Positions 6,529 to 37,299 of a stretch of DNA of 64,000 bases are shown piece by piece (positions within the stretch are counted from its first letter, which is position 1; each line of letters starts with the position of its first letter). The DNA is taken from the NCBI RefSeq assembly GCF_029360725.1, contig NZ_JARKMY010000001.1:434001-498000 (forward strand). The letters are read 5' to 3'. The position numbers and the translations under genes are program-made. The stretch is from Chryseolinea sp. H1M3-3 (GTDB taxonomy: Bacteria > Bacteroidota > Bacteroidia > Cytophagales > Cyclobacteriaceae). A model generated the notes under the pieces. That model did not search any database, had not been told where the DNA came from, and saw only the letters and a program-made list of their open reading frames with translations.

Positions 6529-6589
6529 AAGGTTTGAGACGATTAATTCATTTTGGTACAACTAAAGCCGACCAAGTTGCTGCTGCTCT

Positions 6590-8788: not shown

Positions 8789-8807
8789 AAAAATTAAATA
8801 CGCTAAT

Positions 8808-9302: not shown

Positions 9303-9349
9303 TAGTGATCTAGCGGTTTGAGGGGTAATTGTTGGTATTATCAGCTAAG

Positions 9350-9377
9350 CTGCGCATGTTTTCGTGCACGCAGTTTT
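9350..9377. terminator. Hairpin between convergent genes
   Basis: CTGC-GCATG (9350-9358) pairs with CGTGC-(AC)-GCAG (9363-9373) around a TTTT loop and is followed by TTTT. It lies between the stop codons of the convergent RadC-like and metalloprotease genes, 48 bases after the first. Confidence 0.5.
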
Positions 9378-9494
9378 CCCCCTACATACCAACGTATTTT
9401 TTTGTAGAAACGATTTCTGCAACCTTAAAAAAAGCAAATGGAATCCAAAATACCTGGCCTTTCGTTTTCTCCATGTAAACAATTACTGGCTCAC

Positions 9495-19295: not shown

Positions 19296-20804
19296 TTATG
19301 GGGAATAGTTTTGCGAGAATTGCATCTTGATGAAATTGGATCCATTTGCGAATGGCTCTCCCTGGCGTTGTATAAATCCCTCGACAACATTCTGGTTTCG
19401 CGGTGATCCCGTTTTCAAACTGATGAAACGCTCCGGGCGAATCGCGCGCTCGTATTCTGCAGATGTGTTCGATGATTTGGAAATGTTTCCAAGGCCGATA
19501 GAACTTCCTTTAGAGATCTTTTCCATCAAGTGGTCACCGAAAAGGGATGATGCGTAGTTATTGGTTTCAATATCTGAGTTCGCGTGAAAAATTTTAGTGT
19601 TCAGCGTTCCGAGAAAACTTTTCACTTTAAACTCCCCTTTTTGTCCACCCATATTGCCATAATAATTAGGGAGATTTTGAGTAATGTAAACGGTGCATAT
19701 CCGACTGCTTCGCGCCGTCGCTTGATAATCGGCATCATGCTCGTGGAGAAAATTTTGGGCTTCGTCAGCCCAGAGAAACACCGGCCTTGTCCCATTATTT
19801 GGATCGCGCCGCTCCATGGCACGCTGCCAAATGTACTTGAACATGATCTGCGCATCGCGTCCGACCTTATCATAAAGTTTTACTGGCAAATCGAGAAGAA
19901 TGATCTTGCCGTTCAGGCAGTCTTCCGGTCGAATGTTCGAGGGATTACTACAGAACAATTTATACACTGGGTCACGGAGCAGGCGGAACAAAAATCCTGA
20001 GAAAGAAAATTCAACAATCGATCTGGTTTTTTCGCTCAACGGAATGTAAGTGTCCTCGAAAAATTGTTTAAGATATTTCATCTGACGATATTCAGGAACA
20101 TCGGCAGAAGCGATTTCGTCGTAAATGTCACGGTCGTCGATTCCGCGCAACCTTGCAGCATTTTGTGTCTCCCATTTTTCAAGTTTGCTACGAACTAGAA
20201 CATCGACTTTATCAAACGCCTTCTCGTACGCTCTCGTATTGTCCTTGTTCGCTGCTCTACTAGAATCCTCTTGCAAGCGCGGAATTGACTGAACGATGTC
20301 GTACATTCGTCTCACGGAAATCTTGCCGTACGCCAGCTGGCACAAATCGATTACGTTGAACAAAAGCATATCAAGTGCATTCTCCCAAAAGGGATCTTCA
20401 CTTTTCCCATGCGACTTCTCCGAGCCAGCTCGAATTACGGTCTTGAGAACGTCGACAAGATTTTCCGTGAGTTGCCCACCCGAGTTTCGCTCGGTCTCAT
20501 AGTCAAGAAAATTGAAGAAGTTGTCGTTTTGAGAACTGATGACAACAAGGTCGTGAATGCGATTGACAAGACGACAATACTTGATCCATTCCTCGCGTTC
20601 ATCCGGTTTGACTGTGAGGACCAATCCGCCAAAGCCAGCTCTTAAATATTTTAGTGCAAGAAAACGGCCTGAACCGGATGACTTGCCGGAACCAATGCCG
20701 CCAAAGATTTGCACGCCTTCAACGGCATGCCTAATGGTCCAAATATCGTTCTGTAATTTTCCTTGAATTTCAATAAGAGGAGTATCAAGATCGAAGTGTA
20801 GCAT
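19296..20804 (-). CDS. VirD4/TraD-like type IV coupling ATPase
   Basis: 502 residues. Walker A 'GGIGSGKSSGSG' (35-46), Walker B 'VFLWADEAQNF' (342-352) and a following 'SRICTVYITQNLPNYYG' segment identify a T4CP-family ATPase with a TraM-recognition-like C-terminus ('RPERFISLKTG'). It lacks N-terminal TM helices, unlike classical VirD4; the neighbouring frameshifted membrane protein may supply the membrane part in trans. It delivers the relaxase-bound strand to the secretion channel. It lies in a leftward operon: coupling ATPase, membrane protein, relaxase, small protein. Channel genes are absent from the window. Confidence 0.9.
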   Translation of the reverse strand: MLHFDLDTPLIEIQGKLQNDIWTIRHAVEGVQIFGGIGSGKSSGSGRFLALKYLRAGFGGLVLTVKPDEREEWIKYCRLVNRIHDLVVISSQNDNFFNFLDYETERNSGGQLTENLVDVLKTVIRAGSEKSHGKSEDPFWENALDMLLFNVIDLCQLAYGKISVRRMYDIVQSIPRLQEDSSRAANKDNTRAYEKAFDKVDVLVRSKLEKWETQNAARLRGIDDRDIYDEIASADVPEYRQMKYLKQFFEDTYIPLSEKTRSIVEFSFSGFLFRLLRDPVYKLFCSNPSNIRPEDCLNGKIILLDLPVKLYDKVGRDAQIMFKYIWQRAMERRDPNNGTRPVFLWADEAQNFLHEHDADYQATARSSRICTVYITQNLPNYYGNMGGQKGEFKVKSFLGTLNTKIFHANSDIETNNYASSLFGDHLMEKISKGSSIGLGNISKSSNTSAEYERAIRPERFISLKTGSPRNQNVVEGFIQRQGEPFANGSNFIKMQFSQNYSP

Positions 20805-22278: not shown

Positions 22279-23910
22279 CTATCTCGCTGATTGGTCATTA
22301 TATTGAAGATCTGTCTCACTCTGACTGATTTTTGTTTTTAAAAAATCTTTTGCATGACCGCGGATCAGGGGAATCAAATCGTCACACGTGTAGCCTGGAG
22401 GTAGCTTATAACCATTTAAGAAGAGGCTAGGTGTTGCATAGATTTTATGCTCAGAAATCCAACTCTGGTGTTGACTTATAATTTTTTCCGCCAAAGTAAG
22501 ACTGTCTGAATCGATCGCTATCGGCAATTTCTTTCTAAACCACGAAAGATTCTTTTTTGAATACCAATTAGCGAGAAGTTCTAATGCACCGTCCATTTGA
22601 AATTCAGTGTTGCGTATTTTCTGCAACCAATATTGAATGAGGTATCGTTCAGTTGAAGAATCGTTATTAATCCCGGTGCTAAATCTAATGATAAGCTGGA
22701 TATATTGTGGGTAGTCCGTCAAAAGGGTAGCAATTTTTTGATGTTGGATCTGACAAGGATTACAAAATAGATTGAGAACAGCAATTAGCTTAATTGGCCC
22801 TTGCGGATTGCCGATACACATTTCACCGTCGAAAGAGTTGCATGCGACTTGCTGTTGTTTGGAAAGAAAATAATTAAAGGTTTCTATTGAGTGCTTAATT
22901 CTGTTTGAGGTGATTTCTTTTTCAACGGCTTCTCTTCTTATATCAATTGTTTTTCTTACCATCACCGATGTTAGTAGCAGAGCAACAAATCCTAAAATGG
23001 CCTCAAGGAGTATAAGCGAATCCATCGGAAGCCATTCCCAAATTTTGAAATAAATGAGGTAAAGCAAAATGCTAAGTTGGAATAATAAGATCCCATCGAT
23101 CGTTATGCATAGTTTGCACCATTTTTTTATCCGCTTATATTGATACAAGATGGAAAAAACTATTATTGGAAAAGTTGTCATGGAGAAGGCAACCAGCACA
23201 AACACAAATGAAGGTTTCTTTTCTGCTGGGACCAATCCCGCGAGGGAGATAACGGCCATTTGCAAAATGAAATAAACTAGCGATAGATCGGCAAAATGTA
23301 CGATCCCAAATATTTTGGCCGCATTTGACGCGGCGATTCTTTCACAACTTGGATTAGTACTGGAATTACAAAAGGACTCAATGAAGTTGTATTTAATTCC
23401 ATACTCTCTTGCTACTAAGAAATAGCTAACAAGTACACCACAAAAGGCCAAAAAAAATATTGCTAGATGCGCAAATGAACCGAATAAAATAATCGATGTC
23501 AAAAACATCACCAAAATGACACTGCCAAGAAGTACAGCAGTCAATTTAAAGAAGTTCTCTTGTGAAAGATATATATTATTTCCAACGTCCGCTATTTTTC
23601 TGGTCGGGCGAGCGTGGATCACGATCCCACTGAAATCCTTGAGATCTTTTTTTCTTAGTTCGGCTGTGTTACGAACAATGCTCAATTGACTATCCTGTTT
23701 GTTGAAATGCAGGACACAGGGAAAGGCAGCTTCATAGATCTGGTTTTCATTATACATTTTTATAGTATATGTTACGCCTAGCCGCTGCAATGCATCGGTT
23801 ATACTTGGTAGGGCAGGATAATCAGGATGTGATGTTATAAGCTTTTCACAATATGATTTTGAGATTGGCATTTTTAACAATTGCAGGTAACTAGACACGA
23901 TCTGTTCCAT
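22279..23910 (-). CDS. VKOR-thioredoxin fusion with degenerate C39-like N-terminus
   Basis: 543 residues in three parts. Residues 1-105 resemble the C39 bacteriocin-peptidase fold without a catalytic Cys in the proper place ('HPDYPALPSITDALQRLGV', 'FPCVLHFNKQDSQLSIV'). Residues about 125-330 are a multi-TM vitamin K epoxide reductase domain with Cys pairs (FCNSSTNPSCE, WCKLC). The C-terminus is a thioredoxin/DsbA-like domain with 'NLFCNPCQIQ'. Together they form a quinone-linked disulfide-forming machine in the membrane. This architecture accompanies double-glycine-leader peptide clusters in Bacteroidota. The precursor core has an N-C-N-C motif, a possible substrate. Transcribed divergently from the HlyD gene. 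Confidence 0.85.
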   Translation of the reverse strand: MEQIVSSYLQLLKMPISKSYCEKLITSHPDYPALPSITDALQRLGVTYTIKMYNENQIYEAAFPCVLHFNKQDSQLSIVRNTAELRKKDLKDFSGIVIHARPTRKIADVGNNIYLSQENFFKLTAVLLGSVILVMFLTSIILFGSFAHLAIFFLAFCGVLVSYFLVAREYGIKYNFIESFCNSSTNPSCERIAASNAAKIFGIVHFADLSLVYFILQMAVISLAGLVPAEKKPSFVFVLVAFSMTTFPIIVFSILYQYKRIKKWCKLCITIDGILLFQLSILLYLIYFKIWEWLPMDSLILLEAILGFVALLLTSVMVRKTIDIRREAVEKEITSNRIKHSIETFNYFLSKQQQVACNSFDGEMCIGNPQGPIKLIAVLNLFCNPCQIQHQKIATLLTDYPQYIQLIIRFSTGINNDSSTERYLIQYWLQKIRNTEFQMDGALELLANWYSKKNLSWFRKKLPIAIDSDSLTLAEKIISQHQSWISEHKIYATPSLFLNGYKLPPGYTCDDLIPLIRGHAKDFLKTKISQSETDLQYNDQSAR

Positions 23911-24228
23911 ATCTTTTAGATTAGCGTCGATGCGGGCAGCGTAAACAACAATACTTTATTAGTTTGATCGGAGAAATTACAAATGTTCCTCGATCAAAAT
24001 TAAAAACCTTTGTATGTTATTATCGTATCAGCATCTACTTCGAATATTCCAATATACCCCCTAAGTTATTAACAATAAATCGAACAATATTTTTAGAACA
24101 ATTTTACAAATTATTGTTTTAGAATTGCGTACAGTTTTTTTGGTTTGCTCAAGATTTAGATCCACCTTTCTATTTAGCGCGGAAGACGTTTTTTGAAAAG
24201 AGGTTTAACTGTAAACAGTATCTCACGT
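23911..24228. other. Divergent promoter region of RiPP cluster
   Basis: 318 AT-rich bases between the leftward VKOR-thioredoxin gene and the rightward HlyD gene. On the minus strand a CAAAATTA at 23995-24002 (TAATTTTG when read leftward) fits the Bacteroidota -7 consensus TAnnTTTG, but no matching -33 element is clear. AACAAT/ATTGTT arms around 24098-24119 form a small dyad. Promoters for both operons are expected here. Confidence 0.4.
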
Positions 24229-25545
24229 ATGAAAGAACATGTAGATCCTTTGCTTACACGTTCTCAGGAATTTGGGAATAGTCACACCGAAGAAGTTCAT
24301 GATATTTTATCTCGCACTCCGAAATGGATCGTGCAATGGGGTATTACCATTATCTTTGGGATTGTTCTTGTTGTATTAATTTTGAGTTGGATAATTAAAT
24401 ACCCCGACACAATCGTATCGAAAGTGGTTTTAACAACAAGGGTGCCGCCTTCCTCAATTATCGCAAGATCAAACGGACGAGTACAGTTTCTTGTAGAGGA
24501 GGGCGAACAGGTAAAAGCAAATGAAATATTGGCAATAATTGATAATTCCGCCCGACAAGACGACGTATTTGATGTAAAAAAACTTATTGCATCTTTTAGG
24601 AACGGAGACACGCTTGCAGATACAACTACCCTGCTAACATCGAATTTGCAACTGGGACAATTGCAAAATTCCTACCTAAAGTTCCTCTCCGCTTTAACCG
24701 ATGACTTGTTAACTCGAAAGAATAACATGTATCAAGAGCAGATCAAGACTCTACAACAGAGGATGGGAAGTTATCGGCATTTATCCGATCAACTTGAAAA
24801 TCAAAACAGGATACTAGAAAAGGAACTTTCCTTGGCAAAGAAGAAATTAATTCGCGACAGCGTATTGTTTCAAAATAGGACCACTTCAGCTGCTGACTGG
24901 GAAAAAGATCAAACGAGCTATTTGGAAGTTGAAAGATTATCTGACGCTTCGAAACTTCAGAGTACTAACAACGACATAGAGATTCTAAAAGTTGAGGCTC
25001 AAATCAATGAATTAAGAATTGCACAAAAAAAAGAAGAACTCCAACGACATCATTTAGTTACGGCGGCACTTGATCAATTGGAAAGCGAAGTCGCGGCGTG
25101 GGAACAACAATTTGTTTTAACAACACCAATCGACGGTAAGGTATCATTTACAAAATATTGGAGCGATGCACAATTTGTGCAATCAAATGAAGAGGTGATG
25201 GTGATCGTCCCGTCATCTGAAGTTTTGTATGGCAAAGTATTCACCCCGTTGTTTGGTTCGGGTAAAATAGAAATTGGTCAGTCGGTATACCTTAAGTTTG
25301 ATAATTATCCCTTCCAAGAATTTGGATCGGTATACAGTAAAGTTATTTCGATGTCCGCTGTTCCACGGAATAATATTTACATTGTTGAAGTTGAACTGCC
25401 ACATGGGTTATCTACAAATTTACACAAGAAATTGCTGTTCAAGAATGAAATGCAAGGGACCGCAGAAATTGTGACGCGCGATCTTCGACTTTTGGAAAGA
25501 CTATTTAACAAGATTTGGGCAGCGGCTAATTCGAAAAATTATTAA
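24229..25545 (+). CDS. HlyD-family membrane-fusion protein for peptide export
   Basis: About 438 residues from ATG 24229; a TTG at 24193 would add 12 residues but is less likely. One TM helix (about 38-58, 'WGITIIFGIVLVVLILSWII'), then a biotinyl-lipoyl-like half ('IIARSNGRVQFLVEEGEQVKANEILAII'), a long coiled coil (about 160-285), the second lipoyl half ('TTPIDGKVSFTKYWSDAQFV') and a beta-barrel region. It is the periplasmic adaptor of a type I exporter and pairs with the C39 ABC transporter at 30791-33004. It is the first rightward gene of the cluster, upstream of the precursor. Confidence 0.9.
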   Translation: MKEHVDPLLTRSQEFGNSHTEEVHDILSRTPKWIVQWGITIIFGIVLVVLILSWIIKYPDTIVSKVVLTTRVPPSSIIARSNGRVQFLVEEGEQVKANEILAIIDNSARQDDVFDVKKLIASFRNGDTLADTTTLLTSNLQLGQLQNSYLKFLSALTDDLLTRKNNMYQEQIKTLQQRMGSYRHLSDQLENQNRILEKELSLAKKKLIRDSVLFQNRTTSAADWEKDQTSYLEVERLSDASKLQSTNNDIEILKVEAQINELRIAQKKEELQRHHLVTAALDQLESEVAAWEQQFVLTTPIDGKVSFTKYWSDAQFVQSNEEVMVIVPSSEVLYGKVFTPLFGSGKIEIGQSVYLKFDNYPFQEFGSVYSKVISMSAVPRNNIYIVEVELPHGLSTNLHKKLLFKNEMQGTAEIVTRDLRLLERLFNKIWAAANSKNY

Positions 25546-25696
25546 GCAACTTTCATTCCGAACTTTTTATTTTTTGTCCTTTTTTTTTATTTTTTTTTGA
25601 ACAACTTCGCAGCGTGATGGTTTTTAAAGCGATATTTTCTTAAGGCATTTATTGTGCACAATGTTTATAAATGTTTAACCTTAAATGTTATCTTCT

Positions 25697-25894
25697 ATGA
25701 AAAAAAAATCCAGTAGCAAGTTTGAGGGTTTGAACGAAGCTCTCTTTGAACCAATCGATGAGAAGACACTGTCCTCCGTTAAAGGAGGTGGATTGACCAC
25801 AGTTAGCATGCCAACTTGGGATCATAATTGTAATTGCTCCTATCCAGATTCCTATCCCGTAGATGACACGCCTCCAGGTCCAATACCTGCATAG
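25697..25894 (+). CDS. RiPP precursor peptide with double-glycine leader and Pro-Pro-Gly core
   Basis: 65 residues from ATG 25697 (69 from ATG 25685). Leader: 'MKKKSSSKFEGLNEALFEP', then 'EKTLSSVKGGG', a typical GG-type cleavage site for a C39 peptidase. Core (about 33 residues): begins 'LTTVSMPTWDHNCNCSYPD' and ends 'VDDTPPGPIPA'. It offers Thr/Ser donors and Asp acceptors for ester links made by an ATP-grasp ligase, two Cys (N-C-N-C) for disulfide chemistry, and a collagen-like P-P-G-P-I-P tail. A hairpin terminator follows directly, as expected for a precursor made in excess over its enzymes. Precursor identity is inferred from leader, size and position; very likely. Confidence 0.85.
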   Translation: MKKKSSSKFEGLNEALFEPIDEKTLSSVKGGGLTTVSMPTWDHNCNCSYPDSYPVDDTPPGPIPA

Positions 25895-25909
25895 TTATTA
25901 ACTAAAAAT

Positions 25910-25950
25910 GGGGTGAGTCAAAGTTTGCTCTTGGCTCCCCCAATTTTGTT
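25910..25950 (+). terminator. Attenuating terminator between precursor and maturation genes
   Basis: GGGG-(t)-GAGTCAA pairs with TTGGCTCCCCC (11 pairs, one bulge, one G-T) around a 9-base loop, followed by AATTTTGTT. It ends right before the GTG at 25951. Partial readthrough would give much precursor mRNA and little enzyme mRNA. Confidence 0.75.
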
Positions 25951-25977
25951 GTGCCAAATTTTAGATTCCAATTTGCC

Positions 25978-26958
25978 GTGATTTTAATATTAAGTAACGA
26001 CATCGATGATGGTACCAATCAGGTTATTGATTGGCTCTACTCTTACGGTAAAAAATTTATTCGTGTGAATGGAAATCAATTTTTATCGTATGATTCCTCA
26101 ATAGCTTTGAGCAGCCAGGATACTACGAAATCTATTCAATCGAAACTTTTCGATTTTGATTCGGCTAGTGAAACCGATGTGGTGTGGTTCAGACGATGGG
26201 GCGCACCGGATAGCTTTATTCGTAATGATTTGCCTTCAAGTCTTGCATATCAAACCGGAAAATATTTACTAGGCCAATTCAATATCATTTCAAACATTTT
26301 TTTTGAATCTCTTTCTCACGTGAAATGGGTGAATCACCCTTCCGAATTAACACGGAACAAAGTACATGTTTTGGAACAGGCACTAAAAGCCGGGCTTAGA
26401 ATTCCTGAAACGCTCATTTGTTCCACAAGGGATGAACTCGTCCGATTTAAAAAGGTGCATGGCCGGATAATTACAAAAAGCATTGGCGATATATCTTTTT
26501 TTTACGAGGGAAAAAGTAGGTTCTCAATTTACACCTCGGAAATTGTGGATGAGGATATCTCTCTGGTCGACGAGCATTTTTTTCCTTCATTGGTACAGCA
26601 ATATATTCCTAAGCAATACGAATTGAGAATATTTTTTCTTGATGGAGAAGTTTATCCTATGGCGATTTTTTCGCAAACAAACGAGAAGACACGAATAGAC
26701 TTTAGAAACTACGATGCAATCAAACCAAATCGAACAGTACCATATTCGTTGCCTCCTATTATTAAACGGAAGATTCGTAAACTGATGAAATTATTGGACA
26801 TGAGTTGCGGATCAATTGATATGATAAAGGATTGTAAAGGAGATTACTACTTTTTAGAAGTCAATCCAGTCGGGCAATTTGGTATGGTTTCGTCGCCTTG
26901 TAATTATTTCCTAGAAAAAAGATTGGCTGAACATTTAATGAAAATAACAAACAGATGA
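25978..26958 (+). CDS. gwsG: ATP-grasp peptide ligase of a grasp-with-spasm system
   Basis: About 327 residues from GTG 25978. A GTG at 25951 would also be in frame but abuts the terminator's T tract, and the family normally begins with the strand 'ILILSN'. The ATP-grasp features are present: 'GRIITKSIGDISFFYEG', 'QQYIPKQYELRIFFLDGEVYPMAIF', 'DMIKDCKGDYYFLEVNPVGQF' with the E-x-N metal ligands. Related graspetide ligases form ester or amide bonds between Thr/Ser/Lys and Asp/Glu side chains of a precursor. It lies downstream of the precursor and overlaps the next small gene by 4 bases. No ATG start is available. Confidence 0.88.
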   Translation: MILILSNDIDDGTNQVIDWLYSYGKKFIRVNGNQFLSYDSSIALSSQDTTKSIQSKLFDFDSASETDVVWFRRWGAPDSFIRNDLPSSLAYQTGKYLLGQFNIISNIFFESLSHVKWVNHPSELTRNKVHVLEQALKAGLRIPETLICSTRDELVRFKKVHGRIITKSIGDISFFYEGKSRFSIYTSEIVDEDISLVDEHFFPSLVQQYIPKQYELRIFFLDGEVYPMAIFSQTNEKTRIDFRNYDAIKPNRTVPYSLPPIIKRKIRKLMKLLDMSCGSIDMIKDCKGDYYFLEVNPVGQFGMVSSPCNYFLEKRLAEHLMKITNR

Positions 26959-27158
26959 AGAATAAAAGTATAAACAGAACTTTTGAAGCACTTCGAATCG
27001 GAGAATCACTGCAGTTTGTTAAAGTCCAGGAAAGTACGGCCGGTAATTTTACAACAGTTGTCGGTAAATCTCGGAGTACGTTCTATCAAACCGAAAATAT
27101 GTTATGCGTTGATTTTTACAAACATGTTTCACGAATAGTGACGAAGTATGATATTTAA
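26955..27158 (+). CDS. Small protein encoded between gwsG and gwsS
   Basis: 67 residues. Its ATG overlaps the gwsG stop (ATGA) and its end overlaps the gwsS start by 11 bases, a tight translational coupling that argues it is real. Sequence is polar with a few strands ('SLQFVKVQESTAGNFTTVVGK') and a basic C-terminus; no TM segment, no double glycine. It might be a peptide-binding helper, but no family is recognised, and it could also be a spacer frame. Confidence 0.45.
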   Translation: MKNKSINRTFEALRIGESLQFVKVQESTAGNFTTVVGKSRSTFYQTENMLCVDFYKHVSRIVTKYDI

Positions 27159-28149
27159 ATTGTTTGCATGTTGTATTCCTGTTTCTGGCGCAAGGAGGAG
27201 CATAATCTGTGACATCCAAAGAGGCACTTATAAATTTATACCAAACATCCTTTATGATATTTTGACGACTCATAAGGATAAGTCCATTGAGTCGATAAAA
27301 TCAACTTACGGGCATAAATACAGTGACGAACTTGATTCTTATTTCTTGTTCTTAGAACAGAACGAATTCGGTTTTTGGTGTGACGATCCTAAAAGGTTTC
27401 CTGATATCAAGATGGAATGGATGCACCCTTCTGCCATCACCAACGCGATAATCGATATTGATGCGACATCCCACCATGACTATTCTAAAATTAGGTTCCA
27501 ACTTGATGATCTTGGGTGTCAGGCTCTACAACTCCGAATTTATGATGAGATTGAACCACAGCAACTGAGGAATATCATTTCCGAATTTAATGATAGTAGA
27601 CTTCGTTCAATTGATGTTGTAATTAAATATTCAAACAACCTCACAGTGGAAGTACTGTCTGAGCTTTGTCAAAGTCTTCAACGTGTAAGAAGTGTTCAAA
27701 TACATTCGTCTCCAGAACTCAAAAAAGTTCAAGTCTTTGGGATTAAGACTCCGCTAAATTTTCTTACCGAGGAAATTAATGATCACACGCATTGTGGAGT
27801 CGTCAACGCAAGCTACTTTGTCGCGAATGTTTCGAGCTTCACAGAAAGCCTTCACTACAATAGCTGTCTAAATCGAAAGATCGGCATTGATATTCATGGA
27901 AATATCAAGAACTGTCCTTCGTTTCGTAGTACGTTCGGAAACATCAAAGATTCCACCTTACGCGAAGCGTTAGATAGGCCAGGCTTTAAAGATTTTTGGA
28001 ACGTTACAAAGGATAGCGTTACAATTTGTTGTGATTGCGAGTTCAGATATATATGTATGGACTGTCGCGCTTTCACAAAGGACAACGAAAAGCATGGTAA
28101 ACCTGAAAAATGTAATTATGATCCATACACTGCAAAATGGGCTAGTTAA
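27148..28149 (+). CDS. gwsS: SPASM-domain peptide maturase of a grasp-with-spasm system
   Basis: 333 residues. The C-terminal SPASM domain has the expected cysteine set: C240, C256, then 'CCDCEFRYICMDCRAF' (C294, C295, C297, C303, C306) and C322. The N-terminal two thirds lack the radical-SAM CxxxCxxC, which is normal for this family ('SPASM_w_grasp') and suggests that it binds Fe-S clusters or the peptide without a standard SAM site. It works with the ATP-grasp ligase encoded upstream. A linker gene overlaps its start. The next gene (hydroxylase) begins 17 bases after its stop, so the operon continues. Confidence 0.85.
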   Translation: MIFKLFACCIPVSGARRSIICDIQRGTYKFIPNILYDILTTHKDKSIESIKSTYGHKYSDELDSYFLFLEQNEFGFWCDDPKRFPDIKMEWMHPSAITNAIIDIDATSHHDYSKIRFQLDDLGCQALQLRIYDEIEPQQLRNIISEFNDSRLRSIDVVIKYSNNLTVEVLSELCQSLQRVRSVQIHSSPELKKVQVFGIKTPLNFLTEEINDHTHCGVVNASYFVANVSSFTESLHYNSCLNRKIGIDIHGNIKNCPSFRSTFGNIKDSTLREALDRPGFKDFWNVTKDSVTICCDCEFRYICMDCRAFTKDNEKHGKPEKCNYDPYTAKWAS

Positions 28150-28166
28150 ACTTTAAATTTATTTAT

Positions 28167-29162
28167 ATGGTTAGCGAATTAAATAAAGTAAGTGTTATTA
28201 CGATTGGAGCAGCTCTCGTGTTAAGAAAATTTGCGGAACTATCTAACGCGAAAATTTCATTTAACAATATCTTGAATGCGATTGAATCACATTACGATGG
28301 GAAAGGCTTTTCGATGCTTGAAATAGATAAGATCTTAAAAAATTGGGGATTTGATACGTTTGCTGCCCGAATTAAGGAAGAAGCCTTAGATCAAATTGAT
28401 TTTCCGGTTATAAGCCATATAATCGAAAATGACGAAGAGGAGTTTGTTCTTCTGACAAATTACCAAGATGGTATTGTTAGTTTTATAGAGCCTGGCTCGA
28501 TGGAAAAGCATGAGTCACTGTCGGAGTTTAGGAATAAGTGGCAAGGAATCGTTTTAATGGCTGATGCCCAAGAGGGAATCGTTGAGAATGATTTTGAGAA
28601 CAAACAGACCGAGCACGAAAAAGTCAAAAATAACTTTATAAAAACCAAAATGAAATTTGTTGACAACTTCTTTTCCGACGAAGAATGCGATCAACTAATA
28701 CAAATTTCAAAGTCAGAGATGAAACGAAGCTTGGTAACAAACGGGTATCACTCCGCAGTATCCAATCGACGCACTAGTTATTCAGCTACGCTTCGAGATA
28801 TGGATCAAACACTCAAGGACAATATTAGATTAAAAAGTACTCAGTTGCTTGGGGATTTGCCGTTCGAAAAATTCGAAGAATTTCAGTGCGTGTCCTACGA
28901 TAAATATCAAGAATTTAAAGCCCATTTTGATGCGGGAAAAGGAATGAAACGTCCTTATACAATTTTGGTTTATTTGAATGAAAATTTCGATGGTGGCGAA
29001 ACATATTTTCCTCTTCTTGACCTTGTTGTTAAACCAAAAAAAGGAAAGGCAATTATGTTTCACAATCTGGAACCGGATGAATCGATAAATATTTACTCTT
29101 TCCACGCTGGCCTAAAGGTGGAGAATGGAATCAAATTTGCGTGCAATATTTGGGTAAGATGA
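28167..29162 (+). CDS. Prolyl-4-hydroxylase-like oxygenase with C39-like N-terminal domain
   Basis: 331 residues, two domains. The C-terminal half (about 160-331) is a 2-oxoglutarate/Fe(II) dioxygenase of the P4H type: 'RRTSYSATL' (201-209), metal ligands H253 and D255 in 'KAHFDAG', H313 in 'SFHAGL', and the 2OG-binding Lys323 in 'NGIKFACNIWV'. Residues 1-130 look like a C39 peptidase fold without a catalytic Cys ('GFSMLEIDKILKNWGF', 'FVLLTNYQDGIVSFIEPG', 'FRNKWQGIVLM'). The core peptide ends in Pro-Pro-Gly, the classical collagen hydroxylation motif, so the substrate is probably the precursor, recruited through its leader. That link is inference. Confidence 0.85.
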   Translation: MVSELNKVSVITIGAALVLRKFAELSNAKISFNNILNAIESHYDGKGFSMLEIDKILKNWGFDTFAARIKEEALDQIDFPVISHIIENDEEEFVLLTNYQDGIVSFIEPGSMEKHESLSEFRNKWQGIVLMADAQEGIVENDFENKQTEHEKVKNNFIKTKMKFVDNFFSDEECDQLIQISKSEMKRSLVTNGYHSAVSNRRTSYSATLRDMDQTLKDNIRLKSTQLLGDLPFEKFEEFQCVSYDKYQEFKAHFDAGKGMKRPYTILVYLNENFDGGETYFPLLDLVVKPKKGKAIMFHNLEPDESINIYSFHAGLKVENGIKFACNIWVR

Positions 29163-29181
29163 TAATTAAAATGATTACAAA

Positions 29182-29571
29182 ATGCTTTTACGAACGATAT
29201 TCACAATAATAGTAGCGGCGACATTTGTGTGCCACGGTTATGCGATGACGGATAGTCGACTAGAAGAATTTGTGCTTAAGGTGGAATCGTTTTATCAACG
29301 GAACAGGCATATAAAATTTGGTCCCGTTACTACTGGCCGGATGCCAAATTACAGCCCACATCAATCACCGCGAACCATACCTAACTCTCTTGCGACTTTT
29401 ACCGACGCTGTAACAGGGCTTGTTTATTGTCCAAGTGAAGGCTGGGTTGCAGACCCAGCATTAAATTTAAGCCTAGACGTGAATAAAGGGATTGTCAAAG
29501 ACAGCAAGACTGGGAAGGAGTATGACTTGAAATCACTCCGCTCTAATAAAAAAGAAAAGAAAGGTTCTTAA
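29182..29571 (+). CDS. Small secreted protein of RiPP cluster
   Basis: 129 residues with a clear signal peptide ('LLRTIFTIIVAATFVCHGYA'). The mature part is basic at the end ('SLRSNKKEKKGS') with a Pro-rich middle ('MPNYSPHQSPRTIPNSLATF'). I recognise no family. It lies 19 bases after the hydroxylase stop and 12 bases before the next secreted protein gene, so it is in the same operon. Perhaps a periplasmic partner or an immunity component; undetermined. Confidence 0.6.
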   Translation: MLLRTIFTIIVAATFVCHGYAMTDSRLEEFVLKVESFYQRNRHIKFGPVTTGRMPNYSPHQSPRTIPNSLATFTDAVTGLVYCPSEGWVADPALNLSLDVNKGIVKDSKTGKEYDLKSLRSNKKEKKGS

Positions 29572-29583
29572 AATATTTTTTGT

Positions 29584-30780
29584 ATGCTGGCGGTTATATC
29601 TTTTGGACTTATCTTTCTTTCAATAATTTCACACGCACAAACCAGATTTAATAACGAGAACGTCTACAAGTTCTCCGACGAAATTATTAAGAATTTCGAC
29701 AAGGGAGGAAAGACGGACTTTGCTAAGGCTGCACAGGATTTTTCTTTCATTGGGGATTATAAGAATGTGTTGCTTTTCGATGGAAAATTCCGTCAGCCTT
29801 ACGCAACAATAAAAAATTCCGATAGTTCATTTTTTAAGAAGTTTCATACCGTTGAGGCGGCTGAGTATATTATTAGCCGTGCAGACAAGGAACGAATAAT
29901 TATAATCAATGAGGCACATCATTTCCCTTACCATCGCGTATTCATCGCGTCTTTACTTCCGGGCTTGTATGCCAAGGGATTTCGATACTATGGGGCAGAG
30001 ACTCTAAATTTTTCAGATAGTTTAATTAATGAACGAAAATACCCTCTGTTAAGCAGCGGATATTACACCGCCGAGCCACAATTTGGAAACCTAGTCCGGG
30101 ATGCACTCACTCAAGGATTTCGGGTTTTTGCATATGAAGCGAGGACAAAGGAAACAATCAGCAATCCTAAACTAAGGGAAATTGAACAAGCAAAAAATAT
30201 TCAGCAAGTCTTAAATAGAGATCCGTCGGCCAAAATATTGATTCATGCAGGATATGATCACATAAGGGAAGATTCCTTGGGGGGTAGTTGGGAGAAAGCA
30301 ATGGCCTCCCGGTTAAAAGAGCTAACGGGCATAAATCCGTTTACGATAAATCAAGAAGTTCTCACGGAGCGAATAGACCCATCGTTGGAAAATCCTTTTT
30401 TCAAAATGGTATCTGTTCAAGTTCCATCTATTTTACTTGATGGATCGGGTAATGTTTTCTCTGGTCCCGAGGGCACAAATTATTATGATGTCCGAATGTG
30501 CCATCCGAGGACGAAATATATCGAAAACCGACCTCACTGGTTATTTAATAACAACCGAAAAGCAGTTCTTATAGACAAAAAAAAATTGATTGTTGGATTT
30601 CCGTGCCTGGTTCAAGCATACAAGTCTAATGAAGATCCAGCAGTCGCGGTGCCGGTAGATGTTATTGAAATTTCAAGCGGAGAAATGAATAAGCCACTGG
30701 TATTGACAACCGGTGATTATAAAGTTCTCATAAAGGGTATTGGCGGGAAAGAAAATATGATTGACCTTTCTGTCAAGTAA
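29584..30780 (+). CDS. Secreted ERE/ChaN-like superfamily protein
   Basis: 398 residues with an N-terminal signal peptide ('LLAVISFGLIFLSIISHAQ' region). The segment 'IIIINEAHHFPYHRVFIASLLPGLYAKGFRYYGAETL' region (residues 105-141: NEAHH at 109-113, H117, E139) has the E...H pattern of the erythromycin esterase/ChaN/TIKI-like hydrolase superfamily; 'LIHAGYDHIRE' later may add a second His cluster. The C-terminal 130 residues are unassigned. Members hydrolyse esters or peptides or bind haem. In this operon an esterase could cut the peptide ester links, as self-protection or maturation; speculative. Confidence 0.55.
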   Translation: MLAVISFGLIFLSIISHAQTRFNNENVYKFSDEIIKNFDKGGKTDFAKAAQDFSFIGDYKNVLLFDGKFRQPYATIKNSDSSFFKKFHTVEAAEYIISRADKERIIIINEAHHFPYHRVFIASLLPGLYAKGFRYYGAETLNFSDSLINERKYPLLSSGYYTAEPQFGNLVRDALTQGFRVFAYEARTKETISNPKLREIEQAKNIQQVLNRDPSAKILIHAGYDHIREDSLGGSWEKAMASRLKELTGINPFTINQEVLTERIDPSLENPFFKMVSVQVPSILLDGSGNVFSGPEGTNYYDVRMCHPRTKYIENRPHWLFNNNRKAVLIDKKKLIVGFPCLVQAYKSNEDPAVAVPVDVIEISSGEMNKPLVLTTGDYKVLIKGIGGKENMIDLSVK

Positions 30781-30790
30781 AAAATACGAT

Positions 30791-33004
30791 TTAATCAGTA
30801 TGAACAAGAGAATGAAGCTGCTTCTTAACCAACGTGTAATATGAGCCCTTCTTCTCAAGAAGTTCTGCGTGTGACCCCATTTCTTTGATCATTCCATCTT
30901 CCAAGACGATTATCTGATCAGCCTTTTGAATTGTGCTAAGTCGATGCGCTACAACTACAACTGTTCGATTTGATAAAAACTGGTTGAGATTATTGAGGAT
31001 TGTAGTTTCATTATTTGCATCAAGCGAATTTGTGGCCTCATCTAGAAAAATCATTCTTGGATTTTTGTAAACAACTCGAGCAATAAGAAGTCTTTGTTTC
31101 TGCCCCTGGCTTAAATTAATGCCATCGCTGCCAATCTTTGTATTATATCCTAATGGAAGCGTTTCTATAAAATCATGAATATTTGCGATACGAGTGGCCC
31201 TTATCAATTTATCATGGTCTACTGTCTCGTCAGACAAAGCGATATTATTCGCAATTGTATCCGAAAAAATGTAACCATCCTGCATAACGGCACCGCATTT
31301 TTGCCGCCACAGGTCATTATGCACATAAGTTAAATTGTAATTTTCAAAGAGTATTTCTCCTTCTGTGGGTTCGTGCAATCTTAGTAGCAATTTCAGAAGC
31401 GTGGTTTTGCCGCTCCCGCTAGGTCCCACTATTGCCGTGATTTTGTTTGCGGGAATCTCAACGTTTATTTTATTTAATATTTTGGGTGATCGAGTACTAC
31501 CATAACTGAAGACGAGATTTCGTAATGTAATTGTGCCTTCTTCCGGAATTTTCTTAAAATAATTCTGCGATGTAACCTCATCCTTTTTTTCGAGAATTTC
31601 TCCTAGTCGTTCCAAACTAATTTTGGCGTCTTGGGTGTTTTGCAGAAAGCCAATGAGTTGAAGTATAGGAGTATTTAATTGTCCAATAATAAATTGAATT
31701 GCAAGCATCATTCCCATTGTAATTTCTCCGTTAATAACCGATAGGGCGGCGATTACAGAAATAGTGACATTTTTTATTTCATTTAAAAATAATCCACCAA
31801 AATTCTGGTATTGTTCGAGAGCAAGAGATTTAATTTGATTTCTAAAAATTCCTGCGCGAATGGTTTCCCATTCCCACCTTTTTTTCTTCTCACAATTTGA
31901 AAGCTTGATTTCCTGAATACCGGCTACCAGTTGAAGAATTGAATTTTGATTTTCTGATTCAAGCGCAAAATTTTTATAATTGATGTTTCTTCTTTTCTTC
32001 ATGAAAAGAATTACCCACAGAGTAAATATCAAACTTCCAACAAAAAATACCGCGAATATTTTAAAATTGTACAAGGCTAAAACGATGCTAAAAATGCTTA
32101 CAGTAATAACTGCCGAAAAAATATTTATGACGGTGTTGGTTAGAAACCGTTCGATCTTCTGGTGATCATCAATCCGTTTAAGTATATCTCCGGTCATCTT
32201 GCTATTAAAGAAGCTCATGGGTAGTCTCATCAGCTTCATTAGAAATTCTGCGACCAGGGAAATACTCACACGGGAATTGATATGAACCAAAATCCAACTC
32301 CGAAGTATATTTAAGGAAGTTTGTCCCGTGAATAGAGCCACTTGCCCAAGTAGTATAAGATATAAAAAATCTATATTTCGTTGGTTTATCCCGATGTCAA
32401 CGATGGACTGAGTGAGAAACGGAAGAAAGAGCTGAAGCATAATGCCTAAGAGTATTCCCAAGCATAGCTGAATAATCAGTTTTTTATAATTGTTGAGATA
32501 CCCAAAAATGGACTTAAAGCCGTACTTGATTTCGGGTTCATTGTCTAGGTCGTAAAATCTGTTGGTCGGCTCCAATAGTAGAATTCTCCCAGTAGCTCCG
32601 CTGCCATTATTCTGAATATTAACAGAAGGCGTTGCTTGCCACCCTCTAATAAATTCTGCCGGCGTGAATTTGATGAAGCCAAAGGCGGGATCGGCAACAT
32701 AAATTTTTTTTTTGGTCGTCCTGTATACCACGACATAGTGTTGATTTTTCCAATGCGCGATAAGTGGTAAAGGCGATTCCTCGATGAGGGTTCTTAAAGA
32801 AATTGAAGCAGCAATAGTCCTAAATCCGATTGATTCGGCTGCGTCGCTTAAATCGAGCAACGACACTCCCTCACGGGAGGTAAAACAGCTATCTCTCAAT
32901 TTTTTTAGACTTATGGCCTTACCGTAGAACTTCGCAATCATTACCAAGCAGGCCGAACCACAATCCGTGGAATCTAACTGATGAGTAAATGGAAAATTTC
33001 TCAA
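30791..33004 (-). CDS. C39-peptidase ABC exporter (PCAT) for the RiPP
   Basis: 737 residues. The N-terminal C39 peptidase has 'STDCGSACLVMI' (Cys15), 'HWKNQHYVVVY' (His89) and 'VADPA' (Asp105), the full catalytic set. Six TM helices follow (about 165-440), then an ABC ATPase with Walker A 'VGPSGSGKTT', signature 'LSQGQKQRLLIAR' and Walker B 'MIFLDEATNSLD'. It cuts the precursor after the GG site and exports the core, working with the HlyD protein encoded at 24229. It is convergent with the operon on the + strand (11 bases apart) and divergent from the first glycosyltransferase. Confidence 0.95.
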   Translation of the reverse strand: MRNFPFTHQLDSTDCGSACLVMIAKFYGKAISLKKLRDSCFTSREGVSLLDLSDAAESIGFRTIAASISLRTLIEESPLPLIAHWKNQHYVVVYRTTKKKIYVADPAFGFIKFTPAEFIRGWQATPSVNIQNNGSGATGRILLLEPTNRFYDLDNEPEIKYGFKSIFGYLNNYKKLIIQLCLGILLGIMLQLFLPFLTQSIVDIGINQRNIDFLYLILLGQVALFTGQTSLNILRSWILVHINSRVSISLVAEFLMKLMRLPMSFFNSKMTGDILKRIDDHQKIERFLTNTVINIFSAVITVSIFSIVLALYNFKIFAVFFVGSLIFTLWVILFMKKRRNINYKNFALESENQNSILQLVAGIQEIKLSNCEKKKRWEWETIRAGIFRNQIKSLALEQYQNFGGLFLNEIKNVTISVIAALSVINGEITMGMMLAIQFIIGQLNTPILQLIGFLQNTQDAKISLERLGEILEKKDEVTSQNYFKKIPEEGTITLRNLVFSYGSTRSPKILNKINVEIPANKITAIVGPSGSGKTTLLKLLLRLHEPTEGEILFENYNLTYVHNDLWRQKCGAVMQDGYIFSDTIANNIALSDETVDHDKLIRATRIANIHDFIETLPLGYNTKIGSDGINLSQGQKQRLLIARVVYKNPRMIFLDEATNSLDANNETTILNNLNQFLSNRTVVVVAHRLSTIQKADQIIVLEDGMIKEMGSHAELLEKKGSYYTLVKKQLHSLVHTD

Positions 33005-33257
33005 TTCGTATTTGTTAAAAAGCTTAAAACAACAATCAGTAAATTCTATAACCTGTAGACGATTAACGATAACCCGTCCTAAATTTAAAAATTTATCAAA
33101 TCATAGGAGTAACAAAAAGCAAGCGCAACTGTTTCATTTCGACAAACGGTAGATAAATTATAAAATTTGAAAGTTTATAGCAAGATTCTTCTTTAACCAA
33201 TGTGTCTTGGGGTATCTTGGTATTTTAAAAAAAACGTTGTCGTTAAAAATTGCATTC

Positions 33258-34262
33258 ATGGTCGATAAAATTGGAATCGCTACTACGATCAGGGGCTGTG
33301 ACACTGATATTTTGAACAGCTTCATCAAATATCACCTATTTATCGGGTTCGACCATTTTATCCTGTTTTACGATGACGAGAATGAGTGTGTGCCGACAAT
33401 TTTTAATGAAACAGATCATATCACTGTTATTAAAAACAACACAGAAAATAGGGCGAATTGGCAAGGCACCGATTCAAAGTACTTATTGGAATTTACTCAA
33501 ACCGATTTAATAGCTCGACAGATTTTAAATTTAGAATTAGCCATTAAAATGGCTCCGTCACTCGGAGTAAGTTGGCTTGTACATATTGATGTTGACGAGC
33601 TTTTCCTTTGTTTAGGATGGAAAAACGTGAAAGAACATTTCCAATCACTTGATAAACACAATGTCAAGGCCATTAACTACGTGAACTATGAGTGCATCCC
33701 GGAACGATCAAATGTCACCAACTATTTTTTGGAAGGAACGCTATTTAAAAAAAACGTTAAGCATTTAAACGAAAATCAGAAATGCGAAATCGAGTCATCT
33801 AAATTAGGTTCCATAAAGAATTATTTTTTGTTTTATGAGAATGGAAAACCTGCGGGAAAAATATCTGACCAATTGAGGGTTTATAGTCCTCATCTTTTTT
33901 TCAATTCTGTCCAAGCAAGGACTCAGAATTTTCCAATCATACTTCATTATCCTATATGTGGATTCAAACACTTTTACGCAAAGTACAAAGTAATGGGAAT
34001 GTTTCCCGACAAGTGGCTAGGGCAATACACAATCAATGATTACTTGCCTTTTCACGTGAAAGCCCGAGATATTGTTAACTTAAAAGATCAATCCATTGCT
34101 TTGCGTTTCTATCAAGATGAAGTTATTGACAGATATTGTTCATTGACGAGTCAGCTTGTTAAGCGCAAAATATTTCGCCGAATATCTCTTCCATCAAGAA
34201 TTTTAAGGAAAGTGTTACTATCAGAAGCGTCGGTTAGCCACATCAAAGATGGTTACTTATGA
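33258..34262 (+). CDS. Glycosyltransferase, family 92/family 2-like
   Basis: About 334 residues from ATG 33258 (a TTG at 33207 is less likely). 'FIKYHLFIGFDHFILFYDDENE' and 'WLVHIDVDELFLC' match the GT-A family with acceptor-positioning and DxD-like (DVDE) metal site, as in GT92/DUF23-type transferases. No signal peptide, so cytoplasmic or membrane-peripheral. The stop overlaps the next glycosyltransferase start by 4 bases (ATGA). Its place beside the RiPP exporter suggests sugar transfer to the peptide; a capsule role cannot be excluded. Confidence 0.75.
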   Translation: MVDKIGIATTIRGCDTDILNSFIKYHLFIGFDHFILFYDDENECVPTIFNETDHITVIKNNTENRANWQGTDSKYLLEFTQTDLIARQILNLELAIKMAPSLGVSWLVHIDVDELFLCLGWKNVKEHFQSLDKHNVKAINYVNYECIPERSNVTNYFLEGTLFKKNVKHLNENQKCEIESSKLGSIKNYFLFYENGKPAGKISDQLRVYSPHLFFNSVQARTQNFPIILHYPICGFKHFYAKYKVMGMFPDKWLGQYTINDYLPFHVKARDIVNLKDQSIALRFYQDEVIDRYCSLTSQLVKRKIFRRISLPSRILRKVLLSEASVSHIKDGYL

Positions 34263-34990
34263 TATTTCAAAGTTTATGGATCGGAAACAGACTATCAAAA
34301 ATGGAGCAGCTATCGCTTTGTTCGTTTCTTTCTTTAGGCCATACATTCCATCTTTATACCTATGATGAAATCGATAATGTACCACCAGGAGTAATCGTTA
34401 AGGACGCAAGTTCAATTCTTCCGTCAAGTAGAATTTTCAAATACAAAGGGTTTAACAGTTATGCCGGGTTTGCTAATTTATTTAGATATAAACTGATTTT
34501 AGAAAAGGGAGGATATTGGGTAGATACCGACATTGTCTGTTTAAGAAAGATCACAAAAAAGCAAAAGTATGTCTTTGCAAGCCAAAATCATCAAGATGAA
34601 TATAAGGCTCCCAAAGTTGTTGCAAACAACTGCGTGATTAAAGCTCCGAAACATTCTGAAATAATGGAGTATTGTTTTGAGCAGGCGAACAGGAGAAATC
34701 CGGAAACCTTGTATTGGGGCGAAACCGGTCCTATCCTACTTACTCGGGCGCTTATAAAATTCAATTTATCCGACTACGTTGTTGCCCCTCGGGTATTTTG
34801 TCCGATACCGTGGTTCGAATGGAGGCGGATTGTAGAAGATGAGGCTGGCGACATTTGTGAAAACTTTGAAAATTCTTTCTGTATTCACTTATGGCATGAA
34901 ATGTGGCGAAGAAATGGAATTGATAAATCCGCTAATTTTTCAAAAAATTGCATTTACGAAAAATTGAAGTACATGTTTCACATAGTATGA
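34259..34990 (+). CDS. Glycosyltransferase with DxD sugar-binding motif
   Basis: 243 residues. 'FRYKLILEKGGYWVDTDIVCL' carries the DTD (DxD) motif typical of the Gly_transf_sug family (OCH1 and capsular transferases), preceded by 'QSLWIGNRLSKMEQLSLCSF'. The N-terminus begins directly with the fold's first strand, so the protein is complete. It is translationally coupled to the previous glycosyltransferase. The pair are the last genes of the cargo block. Donor and acceptor are unknown. Confidence 0.8.
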   Translation: MIFQSLWIGNRLSKMEQLSLCSFLSLGHTFHLYTYDEIDNVPPGVIVKDASSILPSSRIFKYKGFNSYAGFANLFRYKLILEKGGYWVDTDIVCLRKITKKQKYVFASQNHQDEYKAPKVVANNCVIKAPKHSEIMEYCFEQANRRNPETLYWGETGPILLTRALIKFNLSDYVVAPRVFCPIPWFEWRRIVEDEAGDICENFENSFCIHLWHEMWRRNGIDKSANFSKNCIYEKLKYMFHIV

Positions 34991-35682: not shown

Positions 35683-35958
35683 TTACGACGAAAATGTTTC
35701 TCGTGCGTTTTCTTCAAGATAGCCGATGATTGATTCTCGATCATAAAGGATAATCCTCTTTTGCGGATGCGAGAAACGAATTTTTCCTTCATCACGCAGT
35801 TTTTGAAGCGTCGACTTGGCTTTGATATTAAGAAGGCTCATGGCTTCCTTATCCGAGATCCATTTATTCTCCTTTACATTATTTTTCTCTTTAAGCCGAT
35901 TCACAACTTCCTCTACCAAGGCGTAAAATGCTTTTTCTTCGAGGCAAATGACATTCAT
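35683..35958 (-). CDS. Excisionase/HTH_17-like DNA-binding protein
   Basis: 91 residues. An N-terminal helix ('MNVICLEEKAFYALVEEVVNRL') precedes a MerR-type HTH ('WISDKEAMSLLNIKAKSTLQKLRDEGKIRF') and wing ('RIILYDRESIIGYLEEN'). This layout is common in Bacteroidota elements beside the tyrosine integrase and is often annotated as excisionase-like or as a small regulator. It is transcribed in the same direction as the integrase, 69 bases downstream of it. A frameshifted duplicate follows. It could act as directionality factor for the integrase. Confidence 0.75.
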   Translation of the reverse strand: MNVICLEEKAFYALVEEVVNRLKEKNNVKENKWISDKEAMSLLNIKAKSTLQKLRDEGKIRFSHPQKRIILYDRESIIGYLEENARETFSS

Positions 35959-36027: not shown

Positions 36028-37299
36028 CTACGATTGTGGATTTTGCTGCGTGTTTATGCCTTGCAGTATCTTATCATTATATTGGTCAATGACATCCTTT
36101 TTAAGGTTTGCCAAGTATACTTGCGTTGTGCTCAACCGTTGATGCCCTAACATTTCACTAATCGCGGTTACTGGAATAGCCATGTTGTTGGCAAGGGAAG
36201 CGAAGGAGTGCCGGCTCACATATGATGTCAGGTTTTCATCAATACCGGCAGCCTTTGCAATCTTCTTAAGCCTTTTGTTATATCGCTTGCGAGCCCACTC
36301 GATATCCTTGTATTGCTCAGCTAGCTCGGTTCTTTTAATGATAGGCAGGATAAACTCGGAAGGAGCTTTGTCTTTTAAGTAGTGACTAAGAATTGGTTTT
36401 ACGCCATCCGTTAATTTGATATCATAGAATTTTCCTGTCTTGCGTCGCTTGTAATGGACGCGGCCATCAATAATATTCTCGACTTTTAAGAATGCCAGGT
36501 CGATGAAGGGTGCACCCATGAGTCCGAAGCTCAGTAGAAAAATGTTTCTCGTCTCAAAGAGAACGCTATCGTTCTCAAATTTTAACGCTACTATTTTTTG
36601 AATCAGTTCGAAGCTAATTGCTCTTTTTTTAGTGGGTTTTGTTTTGATCGTATATTGATCGAACGGGTAAGATTCCTTTTCAAGAATTCTATCTTTTTTG
36701 ATCGCTCGATTACAGATCGCCCGAATTGTGCGCATATAGACGGCGAGTCCGTTTAGGCTCAGCCCTTTAGCCAAGTACCAATTTTCGAAACGATCGAGGA
36801 AAGCTCGGTTTAATTCCCGCAGGGGAAAGTCAATTTCGTTCCTGAATTTTTTGACCTCGCGTAGCACATTTGAGTAGCTGCGTGCGTTGCCAATTCTTTT
36901 TTGTTCTTGAAATTTTGCAATTAACTTCTCTGTATACCTAAAGAAAGAATCTTTTGCACCTTTCGCTACTATTCGATTTTTGAGATCGACGATTGATAGA
37001 TAGGAAAGTTCTTTCCGGTCATGAAGCTTGGAAATGATATCGAATGCTTGCGATCGTTCTTTTTCCAAAATATTATTAATCCTGGCAACGTTGTCAAATC
37101 CCTTAAAGCCTTTCTTGATTTTCCGATTATCGAAGTCCCAATATTGCTCGGGTATTGAAAATCCAGTCGACAATCCTGTGGTTTTACCATTGTGACTTAG
37201 ACGAAGTAAGATCGGATATGTTTGATCAGCTTTCTTACGGCGCGTATCAAGAGCCAGGACTACATTTGAATTCATGAAAATGGGATTGAAGATTTGCAT
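36028..37299 (-). CDS. Tyrosine recombinase (integrase) of the island
   Basis: 423 residues (415 from ATG 37275). Layout: an arm-type N-terminal domain ('VVLALDTRRKKADQTYPILL'), a SAM-like core-binding domain (about 115-210) and a catalytic domain. Catalytic residues: Lys287 region ('RRKTGK'), Arg363 in 'YVSRHSFA', His386 in 'LGHQRLS' and nucleophile Tyr395 in 'TTQVYLAN'. The first active-site Arg, usually 'RGMxF', is replaced ('LMGAPFIDLAF', Met261), as in CTnDOT-type integrases that lack Arg I. It faces into the element with its start 128 bases from the att site, the normal arrangement for tRNA-targeting elements. Confidence 0.93.
   Translation of the reverse strand: MQIFNPIFMNSNVVLALDTRRKKADQTYPILLRLSHNGKTTGLSTGFSIPEQYWDFDNRKIKKGFKGFDNVARINNILEKERSQAFDIISKLHDRKELSYLSIVDLKNRIVAKGAKDSFFRYTEKLIAKFQEQKRIGNARSYSNVLREVKKFRNEIDFPLRELNRAFLDRFENWYLAKGLSLNGLAVYMRTIRAICNRAIKKDRILEKESYPFDQYTIKTKPTKKRAISFELIQKIVALKFENDSVLFETRNIFLLSFGLMGAPFIDLAFLKVENIIDGRVHYKRRKTGKFYDIKLTDGVKPILSHYLKDKAPSEFILPIIKRTELAEQYKDIEWARKRYNKRLKKIAKAAGIDENLTSYVSRHSFASLANNMAIPVTAISEMLGHQRLSTTQVYLANLKKDVIDQYNDKILQGINTQQNPQS

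Follow-up and report, generated by a model that had tools for sequence, protein, structure and literature searches.

Layout of the cluster

We analysed a stretch of 64,000 nucleotides from Chryseolinea sp. H1M3-3 (positions 434,001 to 498,000 of contig NZ_JARKMY010000001.1, hereafter the window; the genome is 6.88 Mb in 19 contigs), in which positions 22279-34990 hold a grasp-with-spasm (gws) cluster for a ribosomally synthesised and post-translationally modified peptide (RiPP) of the graspetide class. The cluster opens with a gene for a C39-like/VKOR/thioredoxin protein on the minus strand, followed by hlyD, the precursor gene, gwsG, a 67-aa open reading frame (ORF), gwsS, a gene fusing a C39-like domain to an oxygenase of the prolyl 4-hydroxylase (P4H) fold, a 129-aa ORF, a gene labelled ERE-like (for erythromycin esterase), a C39 ATP-binding cassette (ABC) exporter gene on the minus strand, and two glycosyltransferase genes. 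All of the genes listed in an earlier note on this DNA are present as open frames at the places given there, most of their families scoring above curated cut-offs, but that list had left out the 67-aa and 129-aa ORFs.

The intergenic gaps from gwsG through the ERE-like gene are -4, -11, 17, 19 and 12 bp, and these genes form an operon-like block. The two glycosyltransferase genes form a unit of their own, transcribed divergently from the exporter gene. A scan for sigma-70 promoters was uninformative (35 promoter-like sites against a shuffle mean of 41.1), the two matches to a Bacteroidetes-type promoter both lie within genes, and terminator-like sites number 17, against 9.1 in shuffles.

Graspetide machinery and precursor

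GwsG (25951..26958, plus strand), an ATP-grasp graspetide synthetase, and GwsS (27148..28149, plus strand), a SPASM protein, both exceed the curated cut-offs of their families (TIGR04192, 301.6 bits, cut-off 230; TIGR04193, 334.2 bits, cut-off 175). The earlier note was right that this is a gws graspetide locus with additional tailoring genes. Among solved structures, GwsG is related to ATP-grasp ligases, AMdnB and CdnC among them. In the part of PMC13097080 consulted, every group 14 graspetide comes with a SPASM protein, and in the corresponding part of PMC8939145 branch 5 loci have a small protein immediately upstream of the SPASM gene; the window cluster most likely belongs to group 14 of the former and branch 5 of the latter. 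The 67-aa protein (26955..27158, plus strand) overlaps both gwsG and gwsS and occupies this branch 5 position, that of the LPL family, an assignment by position and not by the LPL motif.

For comparison we collected GwsS matches over the cut-off among 390 genomes of the family and 395 of the phylum (two draws that share some genomes), plus one match below it (G002:C178), and retrieved no more than 20 kb of surrounding sequence for each, giving 36 gws loci besides the window; nine further below-cut-off GwsS-like matches, covering most of the profile, were left out. Several of the loci are cut by contig ends, one (L064) has no detected GwsG, and the GwsS of L107 and the exporter genes of L105 are broken. 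Like the window, gws graspetide loci have GwsG, GwsS, an intervening small ORF, an upstream GG precursor, a C39 exporter and HlyD. Searched with phmmer and the window proteins, the 36 loci gave relatives of the exporter in 14, of HlyD in 13, of the 67-aa protein and of the VKOR-thioredoxin protein in four each, and of the ERE-like protein in one. The oxygenase fusion, either glycosyltransferase and the 129-aa protein were found in none of the 36 by this search, which would miss glycosyltransferases from a different family.

The CxxxCxxC motif is missing from all 37 GwsS frames longer than 290 aa (the window frame and 36 from 34 of the 36 loci; L061 and L107, whose frames are shorter, do not contribute), and four C-terminal cysteines are invariant among the frames examined. 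GwsS is termed a radical SAM enzyme in the part of PMC8939145 consulted. With the motif missing throughout, we rejected radical-SAM chemistry (cysteine thioethers) as the default for GwsS and interpret it as a partner that binds the leader or serves as a scaffold.

The precursor gene (25685..25894, plus strand) lies upstream of gwsG and encodes a GG leader with V-4, L-7 and I-12; the peptide scores 15.6 bits against TIGR04149, below the cut-off of 25. Its core, GLTTVSMPTWDHNCNCSYPDSYPVDDTPPGPIPA, holds Thr, Ser and Asp, and its 34 residues include seven prolines, only two cysteines, arranged as C-N-C, and no lysine. Membership of the family supports ester or amide formation well, and the product would very probably carry such graspetide linkages. 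In proline content the window core stands above all of the 31 other gws cores (maximum 0.115, median 0.033; nominal binomial P of 1.7e-4, uncorrected), which come from 21 of the 36 loci, the other 15 having yielded no candidate core of at least 20 aa. Its C-terminal part, TPPGPIPA, includes Pro-Pro-Gly, the type of site used by collagen-type P4Hs.

A P4H-fold oxygenase fused to a peptidase-dead C39 domain

The gene directly behind gwsS (28167..29162, plus strand) encodes a C39-like domain at residues ~1-135 and a 2-oxoglutarate (2OG)-Fe(II) oxygenase of P4H fold at ~150-331, both above their Pfam cut-offs (Peptidase_C39, PF03412, 43.2 bits, cut-off 22; 2OG-FeII_Oxy_3, PF13640, 47.5 bits, cut-off 27). 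The P4H set of metal and 2OG residues is present as H253-x-D255, H313 and K323, and the predicted model places this HxD...H and Lys in a P4H fold. The model of the whole fusion has a poor N-terminal part and matched only P4Hs, but structure comparison of the N-terminal domain predicted alone gave a match to the C39 fold; the model behind this match, from a 3-row alignment, has a mean predicted local distance difference test score of 71.7, and the other four models reached 55.6 to 58.9. In alignments, the catalytic Cys, His and Asp triad of C39 is lost.

The fusion recurs near C39 exporters in two other genomes (L078; L080/L084). A contig scan, in which two short patterns were used, gave five loci of which only two have full-length fusions, the same two that the genome searches had given, and the rarity of the fusion is better judged from the genome searches, which scored at most five candidates per genome; the plasmid collection yielded the P4H part only, in 16 records that each span less than 80% of the query. 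In L078 the GG leader is canonical and the exporter keeps its triad. As side observations, the neighbours of the fusion in L078 include, at 6391-9494, a protein of metallo-beta-lactamase fold and one of 396 aa with weak similarity to aKG-HExxH peptide beta-hydroxylases, with HQCGH replacing HExxH, and the exporter (7257-9461) by the fusion in L080 has V and T in place of the C39 Cys and His, as in HlyB.

Taken together, prolyl hydroxylation of the window core is fairly supported and, judged from sequence and models, likely; the best single argument for the oxygenase acting on the precursor peptide is its proline-rich core.

The C39 fold, probably in three proteins, and the VKOR-thioredoxin protein

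The exporter (30791..33004, minus strand), a peptidase-containing ABC transporter (PCAT), keeps the DCG, H and DP motifs of C39 as well as Walker A and LSQGQ. It is one of three C39 matches in the genome and scores 459.6 bits against TIGR03796, below the cut-off of 853. The HlyD-type adaptor (24193..25545, plus strand) passes PF13437 (HlyD_3; 35.8 bits, cut-off 22.2) and matches TIGR01843 with an E value of 1.5e-28, under that model's cut-off. Within the window the C39 fold probably occurs in three proteins: the exporter, the oxygenase fusion and, judged by profile comparison only, the VKOR-thioredoxin protein.

This third protein (22279..23910, minus strand) passes PF07884 (51.3 bits, cut-off 27.5), has CxxC motifs at 265 (CKLC) and 383 (CNPC) and scores 19.7 bits against Thioredoxin_4, below the cut-off of 23.2. 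It has no PF03412 match even at E<=5, but its N-terminus matches the exporter C39 (hhalign, E 1.8e-15, from small alignments of 5 and 20 rows) and the N-terminus of the fusion (profile match, E 5.5e-14, again from small alignments), and its relatives in L064, L117 and L118 exceed the Pfam C39 cut-off. Across 26 VKOR proteins, the C39 Cys is kept in none, the His in two and the Asp in 23.

We also examined 20 VKOR loci, chosen by eye from the better matches with frames of ~520-580 aa, gws loci being deliberately excluded; the set includes one picked on a match of 166 aa, which turned out to hold no VKOR frame. A C39 exporter gene or piece longer than 200 aa is found in 15 of the 20 (over 600 aa in 13 of those; L118, with an ABC ATPase only, is not counted), and HlyD in 12. 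Of the 18 GG cores that passed strict scoring, which come from 14 of the loci, 17 hold 4 to 9 cysteines. Given this company of exporters, adaptors and Cys-rich cores, the most likely role of the C39-like/VKOR/thioredoxin protein is disulfide chemistry on GG peptides. Its acting on the window peptide itself we put at even odds, and since the two cysteines of the core form only a C-N-C, we doubt that a disulfide is made there; thiol protection is another possible role, or the protein may be a relic. Across L117-L135, many Cys-rich GG peptides lie beside such proteins and PCATs with no gws genes, often with a leader like MKKLSLEMLRLTSDEVLGRSQMKKITGG, and L122 has several VKOR copies with exporter pieces only.

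Glycosyltransferases and secreted-looking proteins

The first glycosyltransferase (33207..34262, plus strand; Glyco_tranf_2_4, PF13704, 30.6 bits, cut-off 27.5) has a DxD motif. Besides its own genome, one of 206 family genomes has a relative, near genes that look like those for nonribosomal peptide or polyketide synthases, names that come from reading the translations and not from a profile scan; the plasmid collection held no relative. The second (34259..34990, plus strand; Gb3_synth / Gly_transf_sug, PF04572, 33.3 bits, cut-off 22.3), which has a DXD motif, has a relative at 37% in L110, with an exporter and HlyD, the only one besides the window among the 206 genomes. Another, at 51% over 241 aa, lies in L131, met by chance among the 20 VKOR loci and not via the 206-genome search. 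Both enzymes, then, keep natural-product company, although no gws genes stand next to them in any of these other neighbourhoods, and glycosylation of the window peptide is a tentative proposal, short of even odds. L131 (9788-19846) is itself a candidate glycosylated disulfide peptide cluster, with a C39-VKOR protein, PCAT, HlyD, a LanC-like protein, the DXD glycosyltransferase, a second glycosyltransferase-like protein below the Pfam cut-off, and GG precursors.

The 398-aa protein (29584..30780, plus strand) was called an ERE-like secreted protein in the earlier note. It does look secreted, and an alignment places it in a conserved family with an NEAH motif, which resembles one of erythromycin esterases, but no Pfam or NCBIfam profile matches it at E<=0.1 and no solved relative appears at E<=1, and we have dropped the esterase identity. 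A relative stands directly behind GwsS in the gws locus L067, and others occur on three plasmids, of which two were opened and neither showed RiPP company; a role as a hydrolase or in immunity is possible. The 129-aa ORF (29182..29571, plus strand) encodes a protein with a signal-like N-terminus, for which neither Pfam nor NCBIfam gave a match at E<=0.1.

Interpretation and alternatives

We favour, with a probability of roughly 0.6, the reading that this is a mobile graspetide cluster making a proline-hydroxylated, side-chain-cyclised and exported peptide. Beside what is observed (gene content, model folds, catalytic residues kept or lost, operon packing and recurrence near exporters), we infer the reactions, how the leader is docked and the sequence of events as follows. 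GwsG would link Thr/Ser to Asp side chains, assisted by GwsS and the 67-aa protein, which would bind the leader or act as a scaffold; the dead C39 domain of the fusion would read the GG leader, allowing the oxygenase to hydroxylate at least one of the seven prolines in the core, with the TPPGPIPA part the likeliest place; and the VKOR-thioredoxin protein, docking likewise, would oxidise or guard the two cysteines. The exporter, through its living C39, would then cut behind GG and, together with HlyD, secrete the product, to which the two glycosyltransferases may add sugar; the ERE-like and 129-aa proteins may serve maturation or self-protection. The earlier expectation of four or more modifications is too strong, since disulfide formation and sugar addition are suggested by association only.

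Several observations weigh against this reading. With the oxygenase and glycosyltransferases in none of the 36 other gws loci, the window locus is the one case that points to their acting together with gws genes; the earlier note had held that such an absence, together with mass spectra showing only dehydration, would speak against its proposal, and the first half is what the examined loci show. L078 has no GwsG or GwsS within 20 kb, although the same genome has two gws loci elsewhere, so the fusion needs no adjacent graspetide genes. The L080/L084 locus has no recognisable GG precursor, and the N-terminal half of its fusion has no Pfam C39 match at E<=5, its C39 identity coming from alignment to the window protein. 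Further, the VKOR proteins mostly retain the C39 Asp and in two cases the His, C-N-C is a strained pair for a disulfide, the glycosyltransferases are transcribed apart, and the proline test sets one core against machine-picked, non-independent ones with an uncorrected P.

These absences, the separate glycosyltransferase unit and the position of the cluster between relaxase/TraD-like genes and an integrase, where cargo accumulates, could suggest that the extra genes are passengers, the cluster being an ordinary graspetide one whose mobile element also carries unrelated cargo (the glycosyltransferases, the VKOR protein, perhaps the oxygenase). We consider this unlikely as a whole: the fusion follows gwsS by 17 bp within the operon, the fusion, the VKOR protein and one glycosyltransferase each recur near C39 exporters elsewhere, and the window core is unusually proline-rich. 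For the glycosyltransferases by themselves, passenger status and membership are about as likely as each other. More improbable still is that the P4H has another target, for instance the 129-aa protein, the ERE-like protein or a translation factor, EF-Tu being a substrate of other bacterial P4Hs; the nearest folds do include bacterial P4Hs, with entries naming EF-Tu, and those two genes are next in the operon, but such a target leaves no obvious use for the C39 domain, all three fusions found lie near a GG-peptide-type exporter, and the core is rich in proline.

As to what the dead C39 domains do, the part of PMC6363468 consulted reports that C39 peptidase recognises the last 13 residues of the leader and links the degenerate C39-like domain of HlyB to substrate recruitment. 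By analogy, we think it rather probable that the dead domains here read the GG leader. An alternative is that the C39-like domain brings the oxygenase to the exporter, or to unfolded peptides at large, the role suggested for HlyB, with no specificity for the GG leader; this seems unlikely, as the window and L078 both combine a canonical GG leader with an intact-triad exporter.

Many RiPP enzymes locate their substrate via a small PqqD-like domain. Somewhat more speculatively, the peptidase-dead C39 of Bacteroidota could be a general leader-recognition module like this PqqD-like RiPP recognition element, joined to two or more tailoring enzymes of separate origin (prolyl hydroxylase, VKOR-thioredoxin), with exporter and modifiers reading one leader and the window holding the first graspetide cluster seen to have both. 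If so, tailoring enzymes in many GG-peptide clusters go unnoticed in current searches, and dead C39 could serve as portable targeting of hydroxylases or disulfide-forming enzymes to GG peptides.

Relation to described systems

The basic gws system is known, while the combination of genes and the C39-like/P4H fusion appear new: neither was found in the openly licensed literature searched, judged by titles and starts of abstracts, and in keeping with the earlier note these searches brought up no described product of such a gene set; nor was a prolyl hydroxylase in a bacterial RiPP apparent. To our knowledge, a graspetide with hydroxyproline would be a first.

The nearest precedent in the consulted part of PMC13097080 is corallotide, a group 15 graspetide in which a 2OG-Fe(II) oxygenase hydroxylates a lysine in the isopeptide ring, and group 18 graspetides have a 2OG oxygenase for aspartate. 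Corallotide and the window share a graspetide synthetase and a 2OG-Fe(II) oxygenase for one peptide, but the corallotide enzyme is divergent and acts on lysine, whereas the window enzyme has the P4H fold, a C39-like domain and a proline-rich core without lysine. With bacterial and algal prolyl 4-hydroxylases it shares fold and metal/2OG residues, differing in the extra N-terminal domain and the RiPP operon. The C39 domains of HlyB and of LahT/PCAT1 have the same fold, and the triad is lost as in HlyB, but those domains are of the type borne on an ABC transporter, whereas in the window they are fused to an oxygenase and a VKOR-thioredoxin protein. The 20 Cys-rich GG peptide loci share the VKOR protein, exporter and HlyD (and L131 the DXD glycosyltransferase), but were chosen without gws genes and in 17 of 18 cores have more cysteines than the two of the window core. 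Glycocins likewise join a glycosyltransferase, disulfides and a C39 exporter, but no glycocin-type precursor was seen in the window, and its glycosyltransferases are presumably of a different family.

Genomic setting

On one side of the cluster lie a TrwC relaxase (15568-18318) and a TraD/TraG-like coupling protein (19296-20804), and on the far side a helix-turn-helix gene (35683-35958) and a tyrosine integrase (36028-37299). GC content is 0.46-0.49 at 16-22 kb and 0.37-0.38 across the cluster at 22-34 kb. GwsS was not found in five genomes of the same genus, and a C39 protein was not found in four of these five. From this setting, an integrative element probably carries the cluster as cargo.

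A search of the plasmid collection for gws genes gave three gws plasmids, among them one of Elizabethkingia anophelis (L115) and one of Hymenobacter canadensis (L116); the latter has ten tandem 144-bp ORFs before gwsG, nine of which are annotated as ComC/BlpC-leader peptides.

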